Below, piece by piece: positions 1,953 through 57,306 of a stretch of 64,000 nucleotides of DNA. The stretch's first letter is position 1; the number at the start of each line of letters is the position of its first letter. Source of the stretch: Rubritalea squalenifaciens DSM 18772 (GTDB lineage Bacteria; Verrucomicrobiota; Verrucomicrobiia; Verrucomicrobiales; Akkermansiaceae). The DNA is taken from positions 1-64,000 of the forward strand of contig NZ_FQYR01000005.1 in assembly GCF_900141815.1 (NCBI RefSeq), in the 5' to 3' direction. The position numbers and the translations under genes are program-made. The notes below the pieces were generated by a model. That model ran no database searches and was not told the origin of the DNA. It worked only from the letters and a program-made list of their open reading frames with translations.

Positions 1953-3344
1953 ATGAGTAATCGATTGGAAACGGTATCACCGATAGACGGCAGCACTTAC
2001 GTCACACGGGATTACGCCACGCTTGAAGAGATCAGCAAGGCTCTTGCCCTCGCCGCCTCAGCCCAGAAAAGCTGGAAACAAACATCCATTGCGGAGCGTG
2101 TGGACGTTTGTAATAGAATGGTGGATGCCTTTATCGCAAAAAAGGACAGTATTGCAGAGGAAATCTCCTGGATGATGGGGCGACCCATTCGCTATGCCGC
2201 TGGGGAGGTTGCTGGCTTCGAGGAGCGCGCTCGCTACATGAGTGGAATCGCGGAAGCTTCTTTGGCCCCAGTTACCGTACCTGACAAGGAAGGCTTTAGC
2301 CGATACATCACGAAGGAGGCGCTCGGCGTGGTTTTTGTGATCGCGCCTTGGAACTATCCTTATCTGACTTCGGTGAATGCTATTGTTCCTGCGATCCTTG
2401 CGGGTAATACGGTGCTTCTTAAGCATTCAGCTCAGACGCCTCTGTGCGCTGAACGTATTCAGGAAGCCTTTGCAGAAGCGGGTCTTCCAGAGGGTGTATT
2501 CCAGTACTTGCATCTCTCGCATGCTGATACCGAGGAAGTGATCAAGGCTCCTGAAGTGCGTCACGTTTGTTTCACAGGTTCGGTTCCGGGTGGGGCCATG
2601 GTACAACGCGCTGCCGCGGGCAGATTTATTGGCACGGGTCTGGAGCTTGGCGGTAAAGATCCAGCCTACGTGAGGGCGGATGCTGATCTTAACCAGGCTG
2701 TGGAAACCACTGTCGACGGCGCATTTTTTAATTCCGGTCAGTCCTGTTGTGGCATCGAGCGCATCTATGTACATGAGGACATCCATGATGCTTTTGTCGA
2801 AAAAGCGGTGGCTTTGGCTAAGCAATACAAGCTCGGTAGATCTGATGATCCTGAGACGACACTAGGTCCTATGGTTCGTGCTAGTGCTGCAGACTTTGTT
2901 AGAGAACAAATCGCCGAAGCTGTGCAGCAAGGAGCAACTGCTCACATTGATCGAGCTGATTTTTCAATGGATGAAAAAGGCAGTGCATACATGGCTCCCC
3001 AGATTCTAACAGGAGTTAATCACGGCATGCGTGTGATGACAGAGGAATCTTTCGGCCCGGTCGTAGGTATTCAGAAAGTCAGTAGTGATGTAGAAGCGAT
3101 CACTCTGATGAACGATTCTGAGTTTGGCCTAACAGCTTCGGTATTTTCAACGGACATAGATACTGCGGTAAAGATCGGTGAGCAAATCGATACCGGCACC
3201 TTCTTTGTGAATCGTTGTGATTATCTCGATCCTGCGCTTGCCTGGACTGGAGTGAAGAATTCCGGGTGTGGCTGTACTCTCTCATCCATAGGCTTCGATC
3301 ACCTTACGAGGCCAAAATCATTTCATATCAAACAAACTATCTAA
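1953..3344 (+). CDS. NAD(P)-dependent aldehyde dehydrogenase
   Basis: 463 aa, ALDH superfamily. It has APWNYPY (about 131), the catalytic-Glu loop ELGGKDP (about 231), the catalytic Cys in GQSCCG (264/265) and ESFGPVVG near the C-terminus. The enzyme would oxidise an aldehyde to the acid in the cytoplasm. It starts 6 nt after the GS-like gene and ends 6 nt before an alcohol dehydrogenase, so the three are surely cotranscribed. In this context the likely substrate is a gamma-glutamylated aldehyde, as for PuuC. This is inference from the neighbours. Confidence 0.92.
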   Translation: MSNRLETVSPIDGSTYVTRDYATLEEISKALALAASAQKSWKQTSIAERVDVCNRMVDAFIAKKDSIAEEISWMMGRPIRYAAGEVAGFEERARYMSGIAEASLAPVTVPDKEGFSRYITKEALGVVFVIAPWNYPYLTSVNAIVPAILAGNTVLLKHSAQTPLCAERIQEAFAEAGLPEGVFQYLHLSHADTEEVIKAPEVRHVCFTGSVPGGAMVQRAAAGRFIGTGLELGGKDPAYVRADADLNQAVETTVDGAFFNSGQSCCGIERIYVHEDIHDAFVEKAVALAKQYKLGRSDDPETTLGPMVRASAADFVREQIAEAVQQGATAHIDRADFSMDEKGSAYMAPQILTGVNHGMRVMTEESFGPVVGIQKVSSDVEAITLMNDSEFGLTASVFSTDIDTAVKIGEQIDTGTFFVNRCDYLDPALAWTGVKNSGCGCTLSSIGFDHLTRPKSFHIKQTI

Positions 3345-3350
3345 AACAAC

Positions 3351-4526
3351 ATGTCATCTGAATACTCCAATCTCGCAGGAAACTGGAACTATCCTAATGC
3401 CATCAAAGCAGGCGCGGGAACCATCGCGGATTTACCGGAGCACTGTAAAGCTCTGGGCATGAAAGCTCCTCTACTGATCACTGATCCGGGGCTTGCTGCC
3501 TTGCCTATGGTCAAGGACTGCGTGGAAAGTTGCCGTGCAGCAGGACTGAACTGCGGTCTGTTTAGTGAGATGAAGCTCAACCCTAACGGTGAGAATGTCG
3601 AAGCCGGCGTGAAGGCTTATCGCCAAGGCGGGCACGATGGTGTCATCGCTTTTGGTGGTGGCTCTGGGCTAGATGTAGCTAAGGCAGTAGCTCTCATGGT
3701 GGGGCAGGATCGCCCAATCTGGGACTTCGAGGACGTGGGTGACAACTGGACGCGAGTGGATACCCGTAATGTGGCTCCAGTTGTTGCTGTTCCCACTACC
3801 GCCGGCACAGGCTCAGAGGTGGGGCGTGCATCGATCATCACTGATGAAGAAGAGCATGTTAAGAAAATCATTTTCCATCCATGCATGCTCCCGGCGATTG
3901 TGATTCTGGATCCTGAGCTAAGCGTGGGCCTTCCAGCGCATGTCACGGCTGCTACGGGTATGGATGCACTTTCCCATAATCTGGAGGCCCTCTGTTCACC
4001 GTTCTACCATCCTATGGCGGAAGGTATCGCCGTTGAGGGAATCCGTCTGGTGAAGGAATACCTGCCCAGAGCAGTGGCGAACGGTGCTGATCTAGAAGCA
4101 CGTATGCAGATGTTAGTTGCTTCCTCCATGGGGGCGACAGCTTTCCAGAAGGGGCTTGGTGCTATGCATGCCCTCGCTCACCCTCTTGGTGCACTGTATG
4201 ATGCGCACCATGGATTGCTGAACGCGATTCTCATGCCCTATGTTCTTAAAGTGAACCGTGAGGCGATCGAAGAGCGGCTTACCCGGGTGGCACGTTATTT
4301 AGGTCTGGAAAACCCGAGTTTTGATTCCTTTCTGCAGTGGGTGCTGGATATTCGCGCAGAGCTGGATATTCCCCATGACCTCTCAGGTATTGGCATCAAG
4401 GATAAGGATTTGGAGCTGATCGGAATAATGGCCTCGCAAGACCCCAGCGCTGGTGGTAATCCCATTGCACTGACGCCTGCTGAGTACACCAAACTCTGTA
4501 GTGACGCGCTCAATGGAAACTTGTAA
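3351..4526 (+). CDS. Iron-containing alcohol dehydrogenase
   Basis: 391 aa, group III Fe-ADH family. The N-terminal dinucleotide-binding half has FGGGSGLDVAK and PTTAGTGSEV. The metal ligands are visible in GMDALSHNLEA (Asp about 205, His about 209), MHALAHPLG and DAHHG. It lies between the aldehyde dehydrogenase (6 nt) and an amidotransferase (2 nt). An alcohol dehydrogenase is not part of the putrescine Puu route, so its presence suggests that the amine handled by this operon carries a hydroxyl group, for example ethanolamine or another amino alcohol. The cofactor and substrate are not shown by the sequence. Confidence 0.92.
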   Translation: MSSEYSNLAGNWNYPNAIKAGAGTIADLPEHCKALGMKAPLLITDPGLAALPMVKDCVESCRAAGLNCGLFSEMKLNPNGENVEAGVKAYRQGGHDGVIAFGGGSGLDVAKAVALMVGQDRPIWDFEDVGDNWTRVDTRNVAPVVAVPTTAGTGSEVGRASIITDEEEHVKKIIFHPCMLPAIVILDPELSVGLPAHVTAATGMDALSHNLEALCSPFYHPMAEGIAVEGIRLVKEYLPRAVANGADLEARMQMLVASSMGATAFQKGLGAMHALAHPLGALYDAHHGLLNAILMPYVLKVNREAIEERLTRVARYLGLENPSFDSFLQWVLDIRAELDIPHDLSGIGIKDKDLELIGIMASQDPSAGGNPIALTPAEYTKLCSDALNGNL

Positions 4527-6375: not shown

Positions 6376-7761
6376 ATGCAAGGGATGAATCTAACTTTGC
6401 GTCTTATCCTGGTAGTTGCCAGTGCCTTGCTGGCAAGTACGGTCTTTGCTCCGCTAAGTTGGTGGTTTCTAGCTGTAGTGGCTTGGATTCCTCTGTTTGT
6501 AGGTATTCACGGGACGTCCGCCAAGGTGGGGGGACGCCTTTGTTTACTGCATGGTGTGATCTATTTCGGCATTACGATGGCCTGGATCACAAAGGTGTTT
6601 GTGGGGATGTCCTGGGCGATTGTCCCCTTGGCCTTCATCATGGCTTTCTTCTCGATGTTTTTTGGGGCTGGCTATGCTGCGCTTTCTACGCGCTATCAGA
6701 AAGGTTGGCTCGTCGCACTGGGTGGTGCGTGCTGGTGGTTGGCCGTGGAGATGGTGCGTGCAGAGATTTTCGTCCTGAAATTCCCCTGGATGACACCTGG
6801 TGTCGGTTTGGGGCCTGGTTGGATTTCTCCCGTGTTCGGCGTGTACGGGATCAGTTTTTTTATCGTACTTGGGGGGATGTTAGTGGCGCAGCAAGGAAAG
6901 GCGCGTATCGCGGGAGGCGTCCTGCTGTTGGCAATGCTCTTGTCTACTATCTTGCGCCCAAGCCCCTATAAGGTGGGTGAGGATGGCCTGCGGGTAGTTG
7001 CCGTGCAGGCGGAGGGTGTCTATGGGGATAATCTGATCCAGATGGCTGATCCCTTGGCTGGAGAAGCGGATATCGTGCTTTACCCGGAGTATGGGTTTAC
7101 CATGGACGTGCGTCAGACCAAGCATCTCTATGATTCTTTTGCCGAGTTTAGCAGGAAACATGATGCGCTGATGGTCTTCGGTACCGTGACCAAGCTGGAT
7201 CAAGAGAGCTTTTATAATACTGCCCTGACGATGGACGGGGACCAGGTGCTGGGTGAGCATTACAAGAACCACACGGTGCACTTCTTTAATGACGGTATTG
7301 CAGGTACTGAGGCCAAGCCGGTGGAAACCCGTAAGGGGACCTTTGGTACGCCGATCTGTTTTGACTGTGACTATGAGGATACGGTGCGGCAGATGACGGG
7401 TAAGGGCGCGGAGTACTTTATTGTACCCAGTCTGGACGCCAAGCACTGGGGGCTGCAGGAGCACGAGCAGCATGCTGAGCTGTTCAGACATCGGGCGGCT
7501 GAAAATGGCCGCTGGATGATGGTGGCATCGGGTTCAGGAATGACCCAGTTGATCGACCCCTACGGGAACCGGGTGCTCAGCCTTCCTTTGATGGAAGAAG
7601 GGATCTTGTCCGGGATGTTAGAAAAACGCAAAGGGCTGACCTTCTTTACGCGAGCTGGATGGTTGTTTCCATGGATTGTTCTGGTGGTCGGGAGTGCTTG
7701 GATGCTCTGGTTGATGGGCAGTTACTATGGGCAAAAAAAGGCCCAAAAGATCGGCTCTTGA
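6376..7761 (+). CDS. lnt: Apolipoprotein N-acyltransferase-like protein (Lnt family)
   Basis: 461 aa. About five or six hydrophobic segments fill the first 210 residues, followed by a carbon-nitrogen-hydrolase domain and a last membrane helix near residue 430. The triad is visible: Glu in LYPEYGF (about 238), Lys in HYKNHTV (about 297) and Cys in GTPICFDCDY (328). The C-terminal EHEQHAELFRHRAAENGRW segment is typical of Lnt. Lnt adds the third acyl chain to lipoproteins at the outer face of the inner membrane. The protein is shorter than E. coli Lnt and lacks the usual LVPFGE motif, so it may be a divergent Lnt or a relative with another substrate. Confidence 0.72.
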   Translation: MQGMNLTLRLILVVASALLASTVFAPLSWWFLAVVAWIPLFVGIHGTSAKVGGRLCLLHGVIYFGITMAWITKVFVGMSWAIVPLAFIMAFFSMFFGAGYAALSTRYQKGWLVALGGACWWLAVEMVRAEIFVLKFPWMTPGVGLGPGWISPVFGVYGISFFIVLGGMLVAQQGKARIAGGVLLLAMLLSTILRPSPYKVGEDGLRVVAVQAEGVYGDNLIQMADPLAGEADIVLYPEYGFTMDVRQTKHLYDSFAEFSRKHDALMVFGTVTKLDQESFYNTALTMDGDQVLGEHYKNHTVHFFNDGIAGTEAKPVETRKGTFGTPICFDCDYEDTVRQMTGKGAEYFIVPSLDAKHWGLQEHEQHAELFRHRAAENGRWMMVASGSGMTQLIDPYGNRVLSLPLMEEGILSGMLEKRKGLTFFTRAGWLFPWIVLVVGSAWMLWLMGSYYGQKKAQKIGS

Positions 7762-40866: not shown

Positions 40867-41640
40867 TTACCGCACGAGGACGCCTTTGCGGGATGGAGAT
40901 TCACACGCGTCGATGAGTTTGAGGGCCGCCTCAGTCCATTCGCCAAGTTCTTTGCATTGCTTGATCGCCTCATTGATGGAGAGTCCTCGGCGGAAGAGGA
41001 TGTCGTAGGCTTTCTTGATGTTCTCCCGTTGTTTGGCATCAAAGCCTGAGCGGCGTAGGCCGATGATGTTGAGGCCTGCTAGTTTATTCTGGCCGTGGCA
41101 CATGCAGTAAGGGGGGATGTCTTTGCTGATCGCTGCATTGCCTTGGGAGATGGCATAATCTCCGATATTGATGAACTGGTGGAAGCCAGCGCCCCCGCCA
41201 AGGAAGGTGCGATTGCCTACGGTGATGTGGCCAGCAAGCATGCAGTTGTTAGCGATCACGTTGTGGTCGCCGAGGGTGACATCGTGGGCAAGGTGAGTGC
41301 CCACCATGAGGAAGTTGTGGTTACCGATGACGGTGTTCTCTCCAGCCTTGGTGCTGCGGTGAATAGTCACATTTTCCCTGATGCTATTGTTGTCGCCGAT
41401 GATAGTGCCGCTGTCCGTTGAGGGGTCAAAGGAATGATCCTGCGGCAGGCCGCCGATATGTGAGCCGAAGCCAATGAGGTTTTCTTTGCCGATGATGGTC
41501 TTGCCAGTGACCCACACGTGGGGATCGATGGTAGTGTTGTCGCCGATAGTAACGCCAGCTTCGATGATGGAGAAGGCTCCGATGGAAACATTTTCCCCGA
41601 TAGTGGCTTCCGGGCTGATGATCGCTGATGGGTGATGCAT
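40867..41640 (-). CDS. LpxA-like acyltransferase (divergent paralogue)
   Basis: 257 aa, left-handed beta-helix hexapeptide repeats (ISPEATIGENVSIGAFS...) and a C-terminal helical domain ending KGVLVR. It keeps the LpxA catalytic region HLAHDVTLG and the later LAGHITVG and HQFINIG. It differs from the second, canonical copy at 56533 in the acyl-groove region and the C-terminus (CMCHGQNKLAGLNIIGLRR). LpxA adds a 3-hydroxyacyl group to UDP-GlcNAc in lipid A synthesis. This copy may have another acyl or sugar specificity. It ends a run of genes on the minus strand. Confidence 0.85.
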   Translation of the reverse strand: MHHPSAIISPEATIGENVSIGAFSIIEAGVTIGDNTTIDPHVWVTGKTIIGKENLIGFGSHIGGLPQDHSFDPSTDSGTIIGDNNSIRENVTIHRSTKAGENTVIGNHNFLMVGTHLAHDVTLGDHNVIANNCMLAGHITVGNRTFLGGGAGFHQFINIGDYAISQGNAAISKDIPPYCMCHGQNKLAGLNIIGLRRSGFDAKQRENIKKAYDILFRRGLSINEAIKQCKELGEWTEAALKLIDACESPSRKGVLVR

Positions 41641-50693: not shown

Positions 50694-50780
50694 GGTGCCG
50701 GAGTCTCAAGCCTGAGCCTGCAAGATTCAAGCAGCAAGTTGCCTGAGCTTCGGGATTGCCTGTGTCTGAGCATTAGGATA

Positions 50781-53183
50781 ATGCTGTGTCTTATGCGTTT
50801 GCTCTCCGTATCTATCCTTGCGCTACTAGGTATCTCGGTAATGGCCCTCATGGCGGTGCCCATGGATTATTCGAATTACCGAAAGAAATTGTTCGAAAAA
50901 GAGGTCTACCCTCAGCCTGATTTCTCATCAATGAGTTGGGAGGAGCTGCTGGAGTATTTTGGTGAAGGCAAAGTGGCGAGGGTGAAGAAAGGTGTCTTTG
51001 CTCCTGGGGTACCCACTGTATTTCCTGATAAAATGGAGGATCTGTCATCTAAAGAGGCTGCGATGCAATACGCTCTCGCGAATCAGTCCGCCTACCACAA
51101 AGAGCATTATAGGCTGAAATGGGCGCAGTCCGAGAATCAGAAGCTCCCTAAGGAGGGATGGCTGGTTTATAAAGAGAGTACTCCTAATTGCTATTACTAT
51201 AGGGAAACGTATTGGGCTTTTTCGTTAGATAAAAATTTGTTGGTGTATTGTAGTAATACGTCGAATGGGGTGGTCTTTGCTAACTCCTTGATTGATGAGG
51301 TGGGCTATGATATCCGGGTCATTCAACTAAAGCCTGAGGAGTGTAAGCGTGTTGCTGAGCTGATGTGCTATCTGACCTTATTGAGGTCGGAACGTGTGGT
51401 GGATGACAAAGATGGTAGACGAGGGCGGGGAGTCAGTATTGTTACCTCTGATGGGCGATGTGGCTTGCAGTATATTAGCCCGAGTGTTGTAGATGATCTT
51501 TACTCGGACAGGAGAACGTGGAGTGGAGTGTCGACTCGCTGGGATGACGAATACGCTATACAGGTCTGCGGAGATCTAACTGGTGAATATTTATCAAAGC
51601 GCCTACCTGAGCTGCTAGGGGAGCGTTGGAAGCGATATGAACGCATGACTCAGCGCAACGACCTGACTCGGCACAGGAACAAACTGGCACCAAAGCATAA
51701 CCGTGACCAATTGCGAGAGATCAGCAGTGGCATGAACGAGATCTATCTGTTACGGGAAAAATGCTTTGTGCCTGCTTTTATGTTGGCGTGGGTAGTGAAG
51801 GCTACTGGTGAATTGGGGAGAATTGAGTTTAAGCAAGACTTGGCAGCCATAAAGAAGGAGGTTCAGGAGTGGCAAGCTCTGGAAAAAGCCCTGGAAGGTG
51901 AAAAGGATCCTATGGCGCACGATGGCGGCCCTTTGGAAGAATTGAATGAGGAGGAAAAGCTGAAATCTAAATTTGTGCGTCTTGAGGAGTTAAGACTGAA
52001 GTACAAGCGTGGAGTTAGTGATGGATTTTCAGATTTGTTAGAGGATGTGATGCTGAAGGTTTCTACATCTGAGTATCCTGAGGAACTCGTAAAGATGGCA
52101 GAGCAGGATGGTGTGTTAAAAGAATGGGCGCTCAAGAAGCTCTGGAGAGATTATCCTGAAGAGTATGCCGAAGTGCTGCTTTCACATGTGAGGGTAGTCG
52201 CTGGGCGTGCGAAGAAGGAGAAAGCGATTGAGCACCTATTAGCAGTGGCGCCGCACCTTGGAGAGGAGTTGGTGAATGGAATGAGTCCTGAGGATAGGGA
52301 GTTCTATTGCTTGAGCCTACTAGAAACCTACAGGAAATTTTTCCCTGAGGAGATGAGTCAGATGTTGAAGTGGGTGATTGCTAAGGCGCAGGGGAGCAAT
52401 GTGTCATGGAGGCACAGGAGTAGAGCGCTAGGTGTACTCAGGCCAGAGTGGTTTCCTGACCAGCAGGGTGTCGTTTATCCCGTACTCAAAAAGATTGGCT
52501 TTGGGTTTGTGGTGGGTGTGTGTGACCCAAAGTCTAAGATGAAAGCCTTGGGGTCTATGGTGTATTGGTCAAAATCCGCGAGTGAGTGGCGGGAGATATC
52601 TAAGAAGATTGTCTCCGAAGGAGGGAGGTACTACTTTGCAAATAGTGAGGTTCTAAATGCGCTAAGTGTCTTAGCGTCCTGTGTTGGAGATGAGGCTAAA
52701 AAGGAGATCAAGCTCTATGCCGAGAATGCCTTGCTCTATGGCGATGGAGCGGGAGACAGAGTGATCTTCTTTCTATGGGCAAACGATTACCGAGAGAGCA
52801 GGGAGTTTTTAAGGCGTCTGGCCACCAGGGATCCCCAACAAGTCTCCAGCAAGTGGGGAGCAGAAAGTCAGAATGAGCGAAGAGTGCTTTGGAAAGAGCG
52901 TTTCCACATGGCACGTAAGGTCACAGCTTTTTGGGCGGTAGAGAATGAAGAGGTGGAAGCCAAGATGCTGGCGGCTTTCGTTATCTCCGAGCCATATGAC
53001 TTCTTGCACTTGGATGATCCAGAGCTCGGTTATGAAGTCTGGGCATGGAAACGCTTTATCAAACTCATGTCGCGCTATCCAGAGGTGAAGAGCATCTTCA
53101 TCAAAGAAGCGAAAGCCAGACCGAATTATGAGGGTGGCTACTTGAAGCTGATTGTTGAGAAACTGGAGAAAGGGAAACCTTAG
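50781..53183 (+). CDS. Large hypothetical secreted protein
   Basis: About 800 aa from the ATG at 50781 (ATG 50793 is also good; both give a signal-like helix, [20 protein letters not shown]). A TTG at 50739 is unlikely. Not recognised. The first third is mixed and rich in Trp/Tyr/Cys ([29 protein letters not shown]). From about 280 it is mostly helical, with a charged stretch at about 370-440. There is no catalytic motif or repeat that I can name. It begins a block of unfamiliar genes at 50.8-56.5 kb. Confidence 0.75.
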
Positions 53184-53504: not shown

Positions 53505-54617
53505 ATGAAAAATCAGCGCATGCGTACTTTGCTTTGTTTACTGCTGCTCTTCTCCACCGTCTTTGCGGAGGGAGTGATTGAGCTGAGCTACGATGGGCAG
53601 CAGTGGCTCAAAGATGGAAAGATTACGAATGTGGAAGAGCTTGGGCTGATTAAGCGGGAGGCAAAAGATCTTCGGATCATGGCTCCTGCGAATACGGAGA
53701 TGGAGGTGTTTCATAAAATTTTTCCATTGGTGCAGGATCTGGAGGGCAGGTCGCTCATGCTGGCGCTCGGTGATGAAACTATTGTGCTACAAGGATTGAG
53801 TAGTAAGGAGATTGAATTGGTCAGGAGAAAGCCAGTGCCTTCTTGTGCTGGCTCCGAGCCCTACTCGGCTCGTTTGTATGGACTCTATGGTAAAGTTTCT
53901 TGCTGCTTCGGAGGCTGGTTGAAAAATGAGGAGCTTCGATGGGAATCTGATGTGATGATATCGAAAGCTTGGATGCATGCTGACGGTCGGGGTAAGGCGT
54001 ATTACGAGTCCAAGCTTAAAGAGCTTATTGCGCATCCGAACGAGATTGGCGCGGTATTTGTGACCTCCAAGAGTAGTGTGTACGCTGATTATTTTGAGGC
54101 ATCTAAGAAATGGAATGCCATGGGGGTAAAAAAGGCATTTTTACTGGTAGATGATTCCAAGTATTTGTTTCTAGCGCCTATCTTTAGGAAGGGCTGGGCG
54201 GGGTCAAAAGATCAGAATGCAGCTGAGAGTCAGCAAGGGCGAGGGGACGAGACACAAGTATGGTTCCCTGATAAAGAGGATTTTGGCGAGATTGATCCAC
54301 AGTTCGCCGTGAAGCCTTTGGATGAGGAGGTGTCTATGGTTGCGCCTGCTGATAAAAAAGCAGGTGAAGGTAAGGTGAGGGTAACAATCATGGTCGAAGC
54401 CAAAGTGGTGTCTATCAACGGAGAGCAGTTTGGTGTCCTCAAGGGGGGCGATAAAGCGGCAGCGAACAAAAAGCTCAAAGAGTTGAAGGCTCAGGGCGAC
54501 GTGCATGTTTCCATCCAAGTAAGCGGTGACGCGCCGCAATCATTAGTGCTCGATGCTATTAATCTGTTAGTTGCTCAGCAAATAGATAAGGTGACGTTCG
54601 AAGTTTTCAGTGAGTAA
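53505..54617 (+). CDS. Secreted protein with two ExbD-like domains
   Basis: About 370 aa from the ATG at 53505, preceded by AGGGG; the frame is open from 53361 but a signal peptide ([15 protein letters not shown]) begins here. Two segments look like the periplasmic part of ExbD/TolR: one at about 150-220 ([40 protein letters not shown]) and one at about 290-370 ([50 protein letters not shown]). ExbD normally has one such domain after a membrane helix; here there is no helix. The next gene, 5 nt away, has the same build. Function unknown. Confidence 0.72.
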
Positions 54618-54622
54618 ATGAG

Positions 54623-55957
54623 ATGAAGGTGTTGTTGTGTTTGTTGTTTTCAACTCTGCTCGTCCTTGGGCAAGAGTCAGTAGAGTTCTCATTTCAAAAT
54701 GGAGAGTGGAAGCTAGTGGCTGGGAACATGCCGATGAAAGGGAAAAGTGTACGCTTGCTGGCAGATGGCGGGACAAAAATGAAGAATGTCTACCTACCAG
54801 CTGAGGCGCCATTTGTGCACGGGAACGGTGAGTTAATATTGGATTCAATAAGTGATGATGAAGGGCCTGTTAAGTTTACTGGAGCTAATATCACTGTGAA
54901 GGAATTTCAAAAAGAGGTGGCGGATCTCAAGGGGAGGCAGCCGTTTGTGCTGGGTGTTTGTGGGGATTTGTTGTTCGCGCTCGGGCCTGGGGATAATCCT
55001 GCCTTCATGATGCAGGCAGATGGTAAAGGTAAAATAAGTTTTGCTGCTGAGGTGAGGCGAAGGATGCTGCTAAGAGGTGAAATGGAAGGTGTCACAGATT
55101 ATCCTTTGTCTTTTCAGGCTACTGGTGAGACGTCTCTGGATCAGGCGATTAGAGCTGCATCACTACTGCAAAAAATGATGGGAGATAAAATGATCTCTGA
55201 GGCGCCTATGAGGCTGGATGCGGCAAAACAGTTTATCCCTCTAGAGTATGAGTTGCCTGGAATGAGTGCTTATATAGCTGGTAAAGTAGAGACCAAGATT
55301 CAGGTGGGGCTGGGCTTTAAAGGTGTGGTCTATGATGAGGGTGGTAAGATACTCAAGACGGACTTGGAGGTAAGCTCTCATCTCCGAGAGAAGGTGAAGG
55401 CTATTCAGGAGGGAGAGCCTTGGCTGGCAGTGGTCGGGGAGCCGGAGCATTTATTTAAGTATTCGCAGATCCTTCTTAAGCAAGCTGAGGATGCAGGGAT
55501 AAAGTATGTATTGTTCTTTACGACCAATGATCTGGCTGAAGGGGCTTTGACTCCTCCTGAAGGAGCTTATCAGTTTGATAAAAAAGATCTGGCCGTGAAG
55601 GTGAACGACCCGATTAAGCACATGATCGGTTCAGTGCAAGATATTCCCATTGGCGAGGGTGATAGGCAGCCAATGTTTATGCAGTTGAGGGGGAAGGGGA
55701 TGCTACTAAATAGTGAGGAAAGCTACGATTATGATCTAGGGGGGAGGGCTAAATTGAGCAGTAGGCTCGAGCTTTATACGGAACTCGCCGGAGGAGCAGG
55801 GGTCGAGCCTAGTATGGTGATTGTTGTCGATAAGGGTGTGCCCCTCCATCGTGTGAAGGCATTCATAATGCTGCTGGATAATAATGGTATTGATGACTAT
55901 CTCATCATCCATAATACGAGTAAACGGCAAAAGGTGTATCCGATGTTAGATTGGTAG
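54623..55957 (+). CDS. Secreted protein with three ExbD-like domains
   Basis: 444 aa with a signal peptide (VLLCLLFSTLLVLGQ). Three segments resemble ExbD/TolR periplasmic domains: about 127-192 (AFMMQADGKGKISFAAEV, YPLSFQATGE, QAIRAASLLQKM), about 225-300 (IQVGLGFKGVVYDEGG, WLAVVGEPEHLFKYSQIL, AGIKYVLFFT) and about 351-430 (MFMQLRGKGMLLN, SMVIVVDKGVPLHRVKAF, NGIDDYLII). The last is the clearest, with the charged V-x-x-D-K-G-V-P-x-x-x-V pattern. It follows its partner gene by 5 nt, so both are made together. It has no membrane anchor, so how it works without ExbB is unknown. Confidence 0.78.
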   Translation: MKVLLCLLFSTLLVLGQESVEFSFQNGEWKLVAGNMPMKGKSVRLLADGGTKMKNVYLPAEAPFVHGNGELILDSISDDEGPVKFTGANITVKEFQKEVADLKGRQPFVLGVCGDLLFALGPGDNPAFMMQADGKGKISFAAEVRRRMLLRGEMEGVTDYPLSFQATGETSLDQAIRAASLLQKMMGDKMISEAPMRLDAAKQFIPLEYELPGMSAYIAGKVETKIQVGLGFKGVVYDEGGKILKTDLEVSSHLREKVKAIQEGEPWLAVVGEPEHLFKYSQILLKQAEDAGIKYVLFFTTNDLAEGALTPPEGAYQFDKKDLAVKVNDPIKHMIGSVQDIPIGEGDRQPMFMQLRGKGMLLNSEESYDYDLGGRAKLSSRLELYTELAGGAGVEPSMVIVVDKGVPLHRVKAFIMLLDNNGIDDYLIIHNTSKRQKVYPMLDW

Positions 55958-56005: not shown

Positions 56006-56518
56006 ATGCAGTCAAATTCAGTGAAATTTCAGGAACAAATCACTCGCGCTTACTACAGGCAGTTTTTCACCCTCCATGAGCGGATGGTCTATGTCTTTGC
56101 TTTAATCGGGCAAAAGGTTCTCAATTTTCGGCCTTTGCCGTTTACGCCTGAAGTGCGGATTGTTGAGAAACTGGGTTATCAAGTTAAAGAGGCATGTGTG
56201 GATTTCAGATTCCTGTTAGGTTCTGATTTTGATCAAGCGTGGCTTGAGCTGTTTCGGGAAGAGGTGGTGGAGCGGGGTGTCCAAGTGGCCTTTGGTGAGG
56301 GGAATGAACTGATCATTAAGTCCAGCGCTGAATTAATCACGGCAGACCTGTTGGCGGCTAAAATAGGCTTACAGGCGGCGAATGCCCGTTATCGGGAGTT
56401 TGAAAGGGAAGTCGGGCAACTGGCCGAAGAGCAAGATCGTGGTCGTGATGCCGTGATTGCTGCCGAACTGAAGCGCGAGATGCTCGTCAAGCAAGCCTAC
56501 GATAGGCTGGAGGTCTAG
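56006..56518 (+). CDS. Hypothetical protein
   Basis: 170 aa. No signal peptide. The N-terminus is aromatic (ITRAYYRQFFTLHERMVYVF), the middle is mixed, and the last 50 residues form a likely coiled coil (YREFEREVGQLAEEQDRGRD, ELKREMLVKQAYDRLEV). Not recognised. It is the last of the unfamiliar genes before the conserved lpxA-sufS region; it ends 14 nt from the convergent lpxA stop. Confidence 0.75.
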   Translation: MQSNSVKFQEQITRAYYRQFFTLHERMVYVFALIGQKVLNFRPLPFTPEVRIVEKLGYQVKEACVDFRFLLGSDFDQAWLELFREEVVERGVQVAFGEGNELIIKSSAELITADLLAAKIGLQAANARYREFEREVGQLAEEQDRGRDAVIAAELKREMLVKQAYDRLEV

Positions 56519-56532
56519 CTGAACTAGGCAGT

Positions 56533-57306
56533 CTATCTGATCACTCCGCGCTCCGTGGTTTCTAGGAACTTGATGAGGGTCTTGACGTGCTCGTTCTTGG
56601 CTGAGTCGGCAGCCTTGAGATCGGCTAGCGAGAGGGTGAGGTTTGTGGCCTTCTTGAGGAAGACGCGCTTGTAGGCGCGGCGGAGGAAGGAGATGTCTTG
56701 ATCCGTGAATCCACGGCGCTGCAGGCCGACCTGATTGATTGAGCGTACGGCAGCCGGCGTGCCATCGACGATCGTGAATGGCGGGACGTCTTGTACGACT
56801 TTGGTACAGCCTCCGATGAGCGAGTGCTCACCGACACGGCAAAACTGGTGTACTGCGGCAAAGCCGGAAATAATGGCGTGGTCTCCCACCACAACGTGGC
56901 CAGCAATGGTTCCGTTGTTAGAGAAGATGCAGTGGTTGCCTACCACGCAGTCATGGGCGACGTGGGAGTAGGCGAGGAAGTTGTTGTCATTGCCGATGGT
57001 GGTCGGCGTGTCTGGCGAGGTGGAGCGGTGGATAGTGCAGTTCTCGCGGAAGGTATTGCGGTCACCAATGACGAGGTAGGTGGGCTCACCCACATACTTG
57101 AGGTCCTGGGTGCGCTGGCCGATCGCCGAGAAGGGGAAGAAAATGTTCTCCTGGCCGATAGTGCAGGGGCCTTCGATGACGACGTGTGATTTCAGGGTGC
57201 AGCCGTCACCGATAGTAACGTTTTCTCCGACCACGCAGTAGGGGCCGATGGAGACGTTCTCGCCGATGGTGGCTTCTGGTGAAATAATGGCTGTTTCGTG
57301 AATCAC
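56533..57306 (-). CDS. lpxA: UDP-N-acetylglucosamine acyltransferase LpxA
   Basis: 257 aa, the normal length. Hexapeptide repeats from ISPEATIGENVSIGPY, catalytic His in YSHVAHDCVVG, AGHVVVGDHAIISGFAAVHQFCRVG, GGCTKVVQDVPPFTIVDG, and the usual end TERGVIR. It matches E. coli LpxA far better than the paralogue at 40867. It starts lipid A synthesis by adding a hydroxyacyl chain to UDP-GlcNAc. LpxB, LpxD and FabZ are not beside it. Confidence 0.93.
   Translation of the reverse strand: MIHETAIISPEATIGENVSIGPYCVVGENVTIGDGCTLKSHVVIEGPCTIGQENIFFPFSAIGQRTQDLKYVGEPTYLVIGDRNTFRENCTIHRSTSPDTPTTIGNDNNFLAYSHVAHDCVVGNHCIFSNNGTIAGHVVVGDHAIISGFAAVHQFCRVGEHSLIGGCTKVVQDVPPFTIVDGTPAAVRSINQVGLQRRGFTDQDISFLRRAYKRVFLKKATNLTLSLADLKAADSAKNEHVKTLIKFLETTERGVIR

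Follow-up and report, generated by a model that had tools for sequence, protein, structure and literature searches.

Two adjacent genes of Rubritalea squalenifaciens DSM 18772, here called P1 and P2, encode exported, anchorless proteins made up in part of ExbD-type periplasmic domains, and they represent a variant of the ExbD/TolR superfamily. ExbD and TolR are stator proteins anchored in the membrane; their periplasmic domains form dimers that grip TonB or TolA. The domains of P1 and P2 belong to this superfamily, and three segments (P1 285-370, or P1C; P2 222-305, or P2M; and P2 345-433, or P2C) are, with near certainty, homologous to ExbD/TolR periplasmic domains. P1 and P2 do not count as ExbD proteins by a working definition, because the aspartate-bearing anchor and the linkage to ExbB were both sought and neither is present.

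The genes were analysed within a window that comprises a whole stretch of 64,000 nucleotides. They lie on the same strand with 5 nt between the stop of P1 and the start of P2, as the earlier note on this DNA had placed them, and their frames are open across 371 and 445 codons (Table 1). The signal peptides proposed in that note are borne out: read by eye, each product has a short basic n-region followed by a hydrophobic stretch and then a plausible signal peptidase I site, with cleavage placed between STVFA and EG in P1 and between LLVLG and QE in P2. The absence of an N-terminal membrane anchor, also claimed there, holds as well. The motif [SP]-[LM]-I-D-x(3)-LLL, present in ExbD1 and ExbD2 of this genome, is missing from P1 and P2, whose hydrophobic N-terminal run is signal-peptide-like and lacks the aspartate; the single transmembrane helix of the ExbD/TolR family is not found.

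Table 1. Features of P1 and P2 (positions in the window) and operons of related genomes that hold parallel anchorless ExbD proteins
Feature	Position	Strand	Description
P1, exported protein, 370 aa	53505..54617	+	Signal peptide, P2-shared N-terminal region, C-terminal ExbD2-type periplasmic domain
P1 signal peptide, residues 1-21	53505..53567	+	By eye; without motor Asp
P1 ~150-225, possible unconfirmed ExbD-like copy	53952..54179	+	Alpha-beta-alpha-beta arrangement at pLDDT ~50 in single-sequence model; weak pairwise similarity
P1 285-370 (P1C), ExbD2-type periplasmic domain	54357..54614	+	Pfam, profile, own-genome ExbD2, model
P2, exported protein, 444 aa	54623..55957	+	Signal peptide, P1-shared N-terminal region, ExbD1-type domain, ExbD2-type domain
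P2 signal peptide, residues 1-16	54623..54670	+	By eye; without motor Asp
P2 ~60-200, possible unconfirmed diverged ExbD-like region	54800..55222	+	Related to P1 N-terminal half; pLDDT mostly <50
P2 222-305 (P2M), ExbD1-type periplasmic domain	55286..55537	+	Profile, own-genome ExbD1, model pLDDT ~93
P2 345-433 (P2C), ExbD2-type periplasmic domain	55655..55921	+	Profile, own-genome ExbD2, model pLDDT ~88
Operon in Rubritalea MAG	L141:2144-6608		ExbB, ExbD, secreted two-domain ExbD protein (3538-4203, ~221-223 aa; PF02472 E 1.6e-20), TPR
Operon in second genus	L190:303-5142		ExbB, ExbD, secreted single-domain ExbD protein (3279-3656; PF02472 E 1.7e-14), TPR
Operon in third genus	L191:5375-9822		ExbB, ExbD, secreted two-domain ExbD protein (6608-7285; PF02472 E 8.7e-23), TPR

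The pair is flanked by a VF530-family gene, which is encoded on the other strand, and a 170-aa frame of no known family. A tblastn search with three ExbB proteins found no ExbB-like gene in the window (its best match, over 27 aa, had an E value of 0.049), nor was a TPR or Mul1B gene found there, and a promoter and terminator scan gave no signal above chance. The 170-aa frame (56006-56518) lies 3' of P2 on the same strand, is low in GC3 and may share the P2 transcript. On the 5' side of P1, an 814-aa exported protein of low GC3 and no Pfam family (50739-53183) has one distant homologue (24%), which adjoins a BamA-like gene in another Rubritalea genome (L140). The window also carries two lpxA-like acyltransferase genes (40867-41640 and 56533-57306), 15 kb apart and 39% identical, and the same arrangement is seen in R. 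profundi.

Domain content of P1 and P2

Standard family searches see little of either protein. PF02472 matches P1 287-367 with an E value of 0.0012 and 19.3 bits, below the Pfam cut-off of 25.4, and is silent for P2, so that the Pfam check proposed in the earlier note returned a sub-cut-off match for one protein and no match for the other. NCBIfam and PHROGs gave no match in P1 or P2, PADLOC gave a single weak and meaningless one, and sequence searches of the PDB with both proteins returned nothing meaningful. Profiles made from the periplasmic domains of 30 ExbD1/ExbD2 pairs, taken from this genome and its relatives, are more informative. The ExbD2-type profile matches P1 334-369 (20.5 bits) and P2 349-423 (21.9 bits) and the ExbD1-type profile matches P2 236-300 (17.2 bits), while among 2,000 shuffles of P1 and P2 the highest scores were 8.0 bits (ExbD1 profile) and 6.7 bits (ExbD2 profile). 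Pairwise comparison to ExbD1 and ExbD2 of the same genome gave Z scores of 17.7 for P1C, 12.8 for P2M and 19.6 for P2C, and residues 335-369 of P1 are identical to the genome's own ExbD2 at 24 of 35 positions.

Structure models agree with this assignment. P2 was modelled with AlphaFold using an alignment of relatives' ExbD1-ExbD2 gene pairs in which the intervening stop was read through, an alignment aid that keeps the domain order and implies no real fusion. Its pLDDT is ~93 at 222-302 and ~88 at 346-432, and mostly below 50 in the remainder. The P2M model superimposes on TolR (5by4) with Z 10.5 over 80 residues at an rmsd of 2.3, and on ExbD (8p9r) with Z 9.2. For P2C, the match to ExbD (2pfu) has a Z of 6.4 and several unrelated folds score as high; the sequence evidence therefore carries the P2C claim. 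Residues 136-370 of P1 were modelled from the single sequence, without an alignment. The last 80 residues have a pLDDT of ~78, and modelled P1C matches ExbD (8p9r) with Z 10.7 and an rmsd of 1.7 over 72 of 74 residues, well above unrelated folds, and matches TolR (5by4) as well. As a prediction, this fold match is independent of any alignment. In the structure check suggested in the earlier note, the models of all three firm segments thus find matches among solved ExbD/TolR structures. Their models share the fold of E. coli ExbD and TolR (8p9r, 8vgd, 8vgc, 8pek and 2pfu; 5by4) at Z 6.4-10.7, although sequence identity is 7-16% and the E. coli proteins have a single domain and a membrane anchor.

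Profiles, own-genome paralogues and modelled folds together support the central proposal of the earlier note, that these proteins are secreted, lack an anchor and contain periplasmic domains of the ExbD type. The copy it singled out as clearest, P2 351-430, is the part of P2 closest to the genome's own ExbD2. Its count of two copies in P1 and three in P2 survives in part: the firm copies number one in P1 and two in P2, and the other two are weakly suggested. Three of the five segments match a profile; P1 ~150-225 and P2 ~120-200 do not.

What occupies the rest of each protein? P1 22-240 and P2 17-205 are related (Z 5.3, p <0.001). The kinship of the two genes thus extends beyond the ExbD domains, and they are probably tandem paralogues. 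P2 120-200 has weak pairwise links to P1C and P2C (p 0.003-0.005, with many pairs tested), and the ExbD1 profile scores Z 5.9 on P2 18-120. From the sequence, a degenerate ExbD1-ExbD2 pair in the N-terminal region of P2 is possible; for its partial ExbD1 copy at 18-120, that one positive profile test stands beside null pairwise tests of P2 60-126 and a model that is not confident. Neither pairwise nor profile tests support P1 ~150-225 as an ExbD1 copy.

Origin, selection and distribution

Searching the genome with P1 and P2 led to an ExbB-ExbD1-ExbD2-TPR-Mul1B operon on another contig (L005:3577-9676), in which the TPR protein has 1011 aa and the last gene is of the Mul1B family (NF052542, E 4e-69). 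P1C and P2C are homologous to the ExbD2 of this operon and P2M to its ExbD1. The operon proteins possess the aspartate-bearing membrane helix and adjoin ExbB, whereas P1 and P2 are exported, have several domains and are not linked to ExbB. P1 and P2 are not Mul1 proteins, and their link to the Akkermansia Mul1 mucin-utilization proteins (NF052542, Mul1B) runs only through this parent operon. A second ExbB-ExbD1-ExbD2-TPR operon (L006:1449-7710) ends in a gene that is a Mul1B look-alike by position and sequence, and no TonB gene was seen in the ExbB-ExbD1-ExbD2-TPR operons examined. A 2026 paper reported MUL1 synteny to be absent from aquatic Akkermansiaceae (PMC13174399); despite that negative, these two operons of marine Rubritalea end in a Mul1B-family gene or its look-alike.

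The ExbD2 nearest to the genome's own, 70% identical, is that of R. profundi (SAORIC-165). The ExbD2 of the same genome scores 110 with P1C and 113 with P2C, and that of any other species at most 83 and 82; the two domains therefore probably branched within this lineage. Compared to ExbD1/ExbD2, P1C keeps 24 of 35 residues with four-fold sites agreeing at 3 of 10, P2C keeps 23 of 48 with agreement at 1 of 12, and P2M keeps 12 of 29 with agreement at 0 of 7. Agreement at four-fold sites is about that expected by chance, i.e., saturated. Because residues are retained where silent sites are saturated, P1 and P2 look selected rather than decayed. The region of P1C that is kept best, 335-369, spans strand 3, helix 2 and the last strand. 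P2C has diverged in its last strand and, judged by its sequence, may have lost the partner-binding surface. GC3 is 0.50-0.53 in P1 and P2 (0.50-0.54 with the 814-aa and 170-aa neighbours included) and 0.55-0.75 in other nearby genes.

The same two-gene layout, which the earlier note expected in related genomes, did not turn up: searches of 260 genomes of the family with P1 or P2 found no relative of the pair, only ordinary ExbD genes. A two-row profile of the N-terminal halves found no relative in 387 genomes of the order, and no relative of the pair was detected in viral contigs or in the genome contigs searched with P2. The equivalent site in R. profundi, from the peptidyl-prolyl isomerase gene to lpxA, lacks the pair and holds 2.6 kb of other content versus 5.8 kb here.

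Anchorless ExbD proteins in related genomes

A scan of the genus with PF02472 uncovered one further secreted ExbD protein, in a Rubritalea MAG, and a wider search added two from other genera (Table 1). Like P1 and P2, these proteins combine a signal peptide with ExbD domains, one or two in number, and have no motor helix. Unlike P1 and P2, which lie apart from any motor operon and derive from ExbD1/ExbD2, they are encoded between ExbD and TPR within such an operon and resemble the ordinary TolR-like ExbD; there is no whole-protein homology between the two groups. In all three cases the top score of the secreted domain is with the adjoining ExbD, by a clear margin in two and a slight one in the Rubritalea MAG, a pattern suggestive of local duplication on several occasions. 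The protein from the third genus is 72% identical to its adjacent ExbD over 87 residues, and it may carry a lipoprotein-type signal sequence. These proteins come from a different ExbD type; what they demonstrate is only that anchorless ExbD recurs. Our literature search found no description of natural anchorless ExbD proteins, which is not proof of absence.

Other departures from the standard architecture were observed among relatives. Two Ser/Thr-kinase proteins (L185:5-3073 and L186:1751-4801) contain an ExbD domain as well as a DUF4019 at the C-terminus, perhaps an employment of the ExbD fold in sensing. Secreted 340-aa proteins of one genus (L192:6570-7592 and L193:5957-6985) combine a coiled-coil-like segment, one ExbD domain and an uncharacterised C-terminal part. 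An orphan ExbD2-like protein (L143:2689-3168), whose N-terminal helix lacks the motor aspartate motif, adjoins a metallo-beta-lactamase-fold gene.

Possible roles

How might an ExbD protein act without its anchor? P1 and P2 are unable to carry protons or to be driven by ExbB, and therefore should act as binding modules. Our tentative preference, held at a little under an even chance, is that they are periplasmic binding modules for the partners of the ExbB-ExbD1-ExbD2 motor, with which they would pair or for which they would compete. The suggestion in the earlier note that such proteins could bind the ends of Ton or Tol partners is plausible. In the E. coli ExbD dimer, contact is made via the loop that joins strand 3 to helix 2, and the D-box strand of TonB is added to the last ExbD strands at residues 130-134 (PMC10907165; reviewed in PMC12905483). 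P1C is best kept at strand 3, helix 2 and the last strand, and therefore soluble copies could pair with membrane ExbD or hold a partner strand. Upon cleavage of their signal peptides, P1 and P2 would become soluble ExbD modules, presumably in the periplasm, and might pair with membrane ExbD1 or ExbD2, since ExbD domains work as dimers. Alternatively, they might hold the partner strand normally captured by the ExbD dimer. The outcome would be that coupling of the motor to its putative periplasmic partners is modulated or extended, whichever way the effect runs. We lean slightly to modulation or competition because the interaction surfaces persist in domains from which the force-generating part is gone. 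Parentage in the genome's own ExbD1/ExbD2, fold, sequence constraint, the well-kept strand 3 to last strand of P1C and the parallel cases in ExbB-ExbD operons speak for a partner of the motor; the lack of an adjoining ExbB, TPR or Mul1B gene, the unexplained half or so of each protein, the diverged last strand of P2C and the failure to find a homologue of the pair in the genomes searched speak against it.

A second possibility is that P1 and P2 descend from ExbD but now serve as binding or scaffold proteins for a separate ligand (peptidoglycan, a glycan or another envelope protein) and have no link left to the motor; the shared N-terminal region and linkers would then carry the new function. 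Opening of the dimer allows the periplasmic domains of ExbD and TolR to bind peptidoglycan (PMC12905483), neither gene is linked to an ExbB operon, the shared N-terminal region has no known relatives, and the fusions to Ser/Thr kinases and other secreted proteins in relatives indicate that the fold is re-usable. We nevertheless consider this rather unlikely, as no ligand is known and P1C best retains the dimer and partner-strand region of ExbD2, which fits ExbD-type contacts. Could the genes instead be lineage-specific duplicates of no important function that are heading to loss? Their occurrence in a single species, their GC3 below that of most nearby genes and the strong divergence outside three patches speak for this, but both frames are open and have export signals, and residues match ExbD1/ExbD2 despite saturated synonymous sites, making this improbable.

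That the resemblance to ExbD reflects chance or a common alpha/beta topology is scarcely credible. Pfam matches are sub-cut-off or absent and ribosomal S11-like and kinase folds reach Z 6-7 against the models, yet P2M and P1C clearly favour ExbD/TolR over other folds, P1C without an alignment. For the three firm segments, the shuffles, which the profile scores far exceed, and the pairwise Z of 12.8-19.6 with the genome's own ExbD1/ExbD2 contradict chance resemblance.

Returning to the preferred role as partners of the motor, the anchor-free ExbD proteins beside ExbB-ExbD motors in several relatives hint at an undescribed soluble motor partner. A broader proposal, which we regard as speculative and as having appreciably less than an even chance, is that soluble exported ExbD is a recurring, undescribed third component of Akkermansiaceae ExbB-ExbD motors. 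It would arise by repeated copying of the local ExbD periplasmic domain behind a signal peptide and act as a co-subunit or governor, with P1 and P2 as an elaborated two-gene version made from ExbD1 and ExbD2.

In a natural anchorless ExbD, partner binding is separated from force generation, and such proteins would serve as ready-made tools. With anchorless genes present inside ExbB-ExbD operons, the idea of a co-subunit or brake in the periplasm can be tested directly. The answer would bear on how the grip of ExbD and TolR is regulated and on what the ExbB-ExbD1-ExbD2-TPR operons drive in the periplasm. Since the parents belong to a Mul1-type operon, a kind associated with mucin use in Akkermansia, the result would also bear on glycan uptake in this family.
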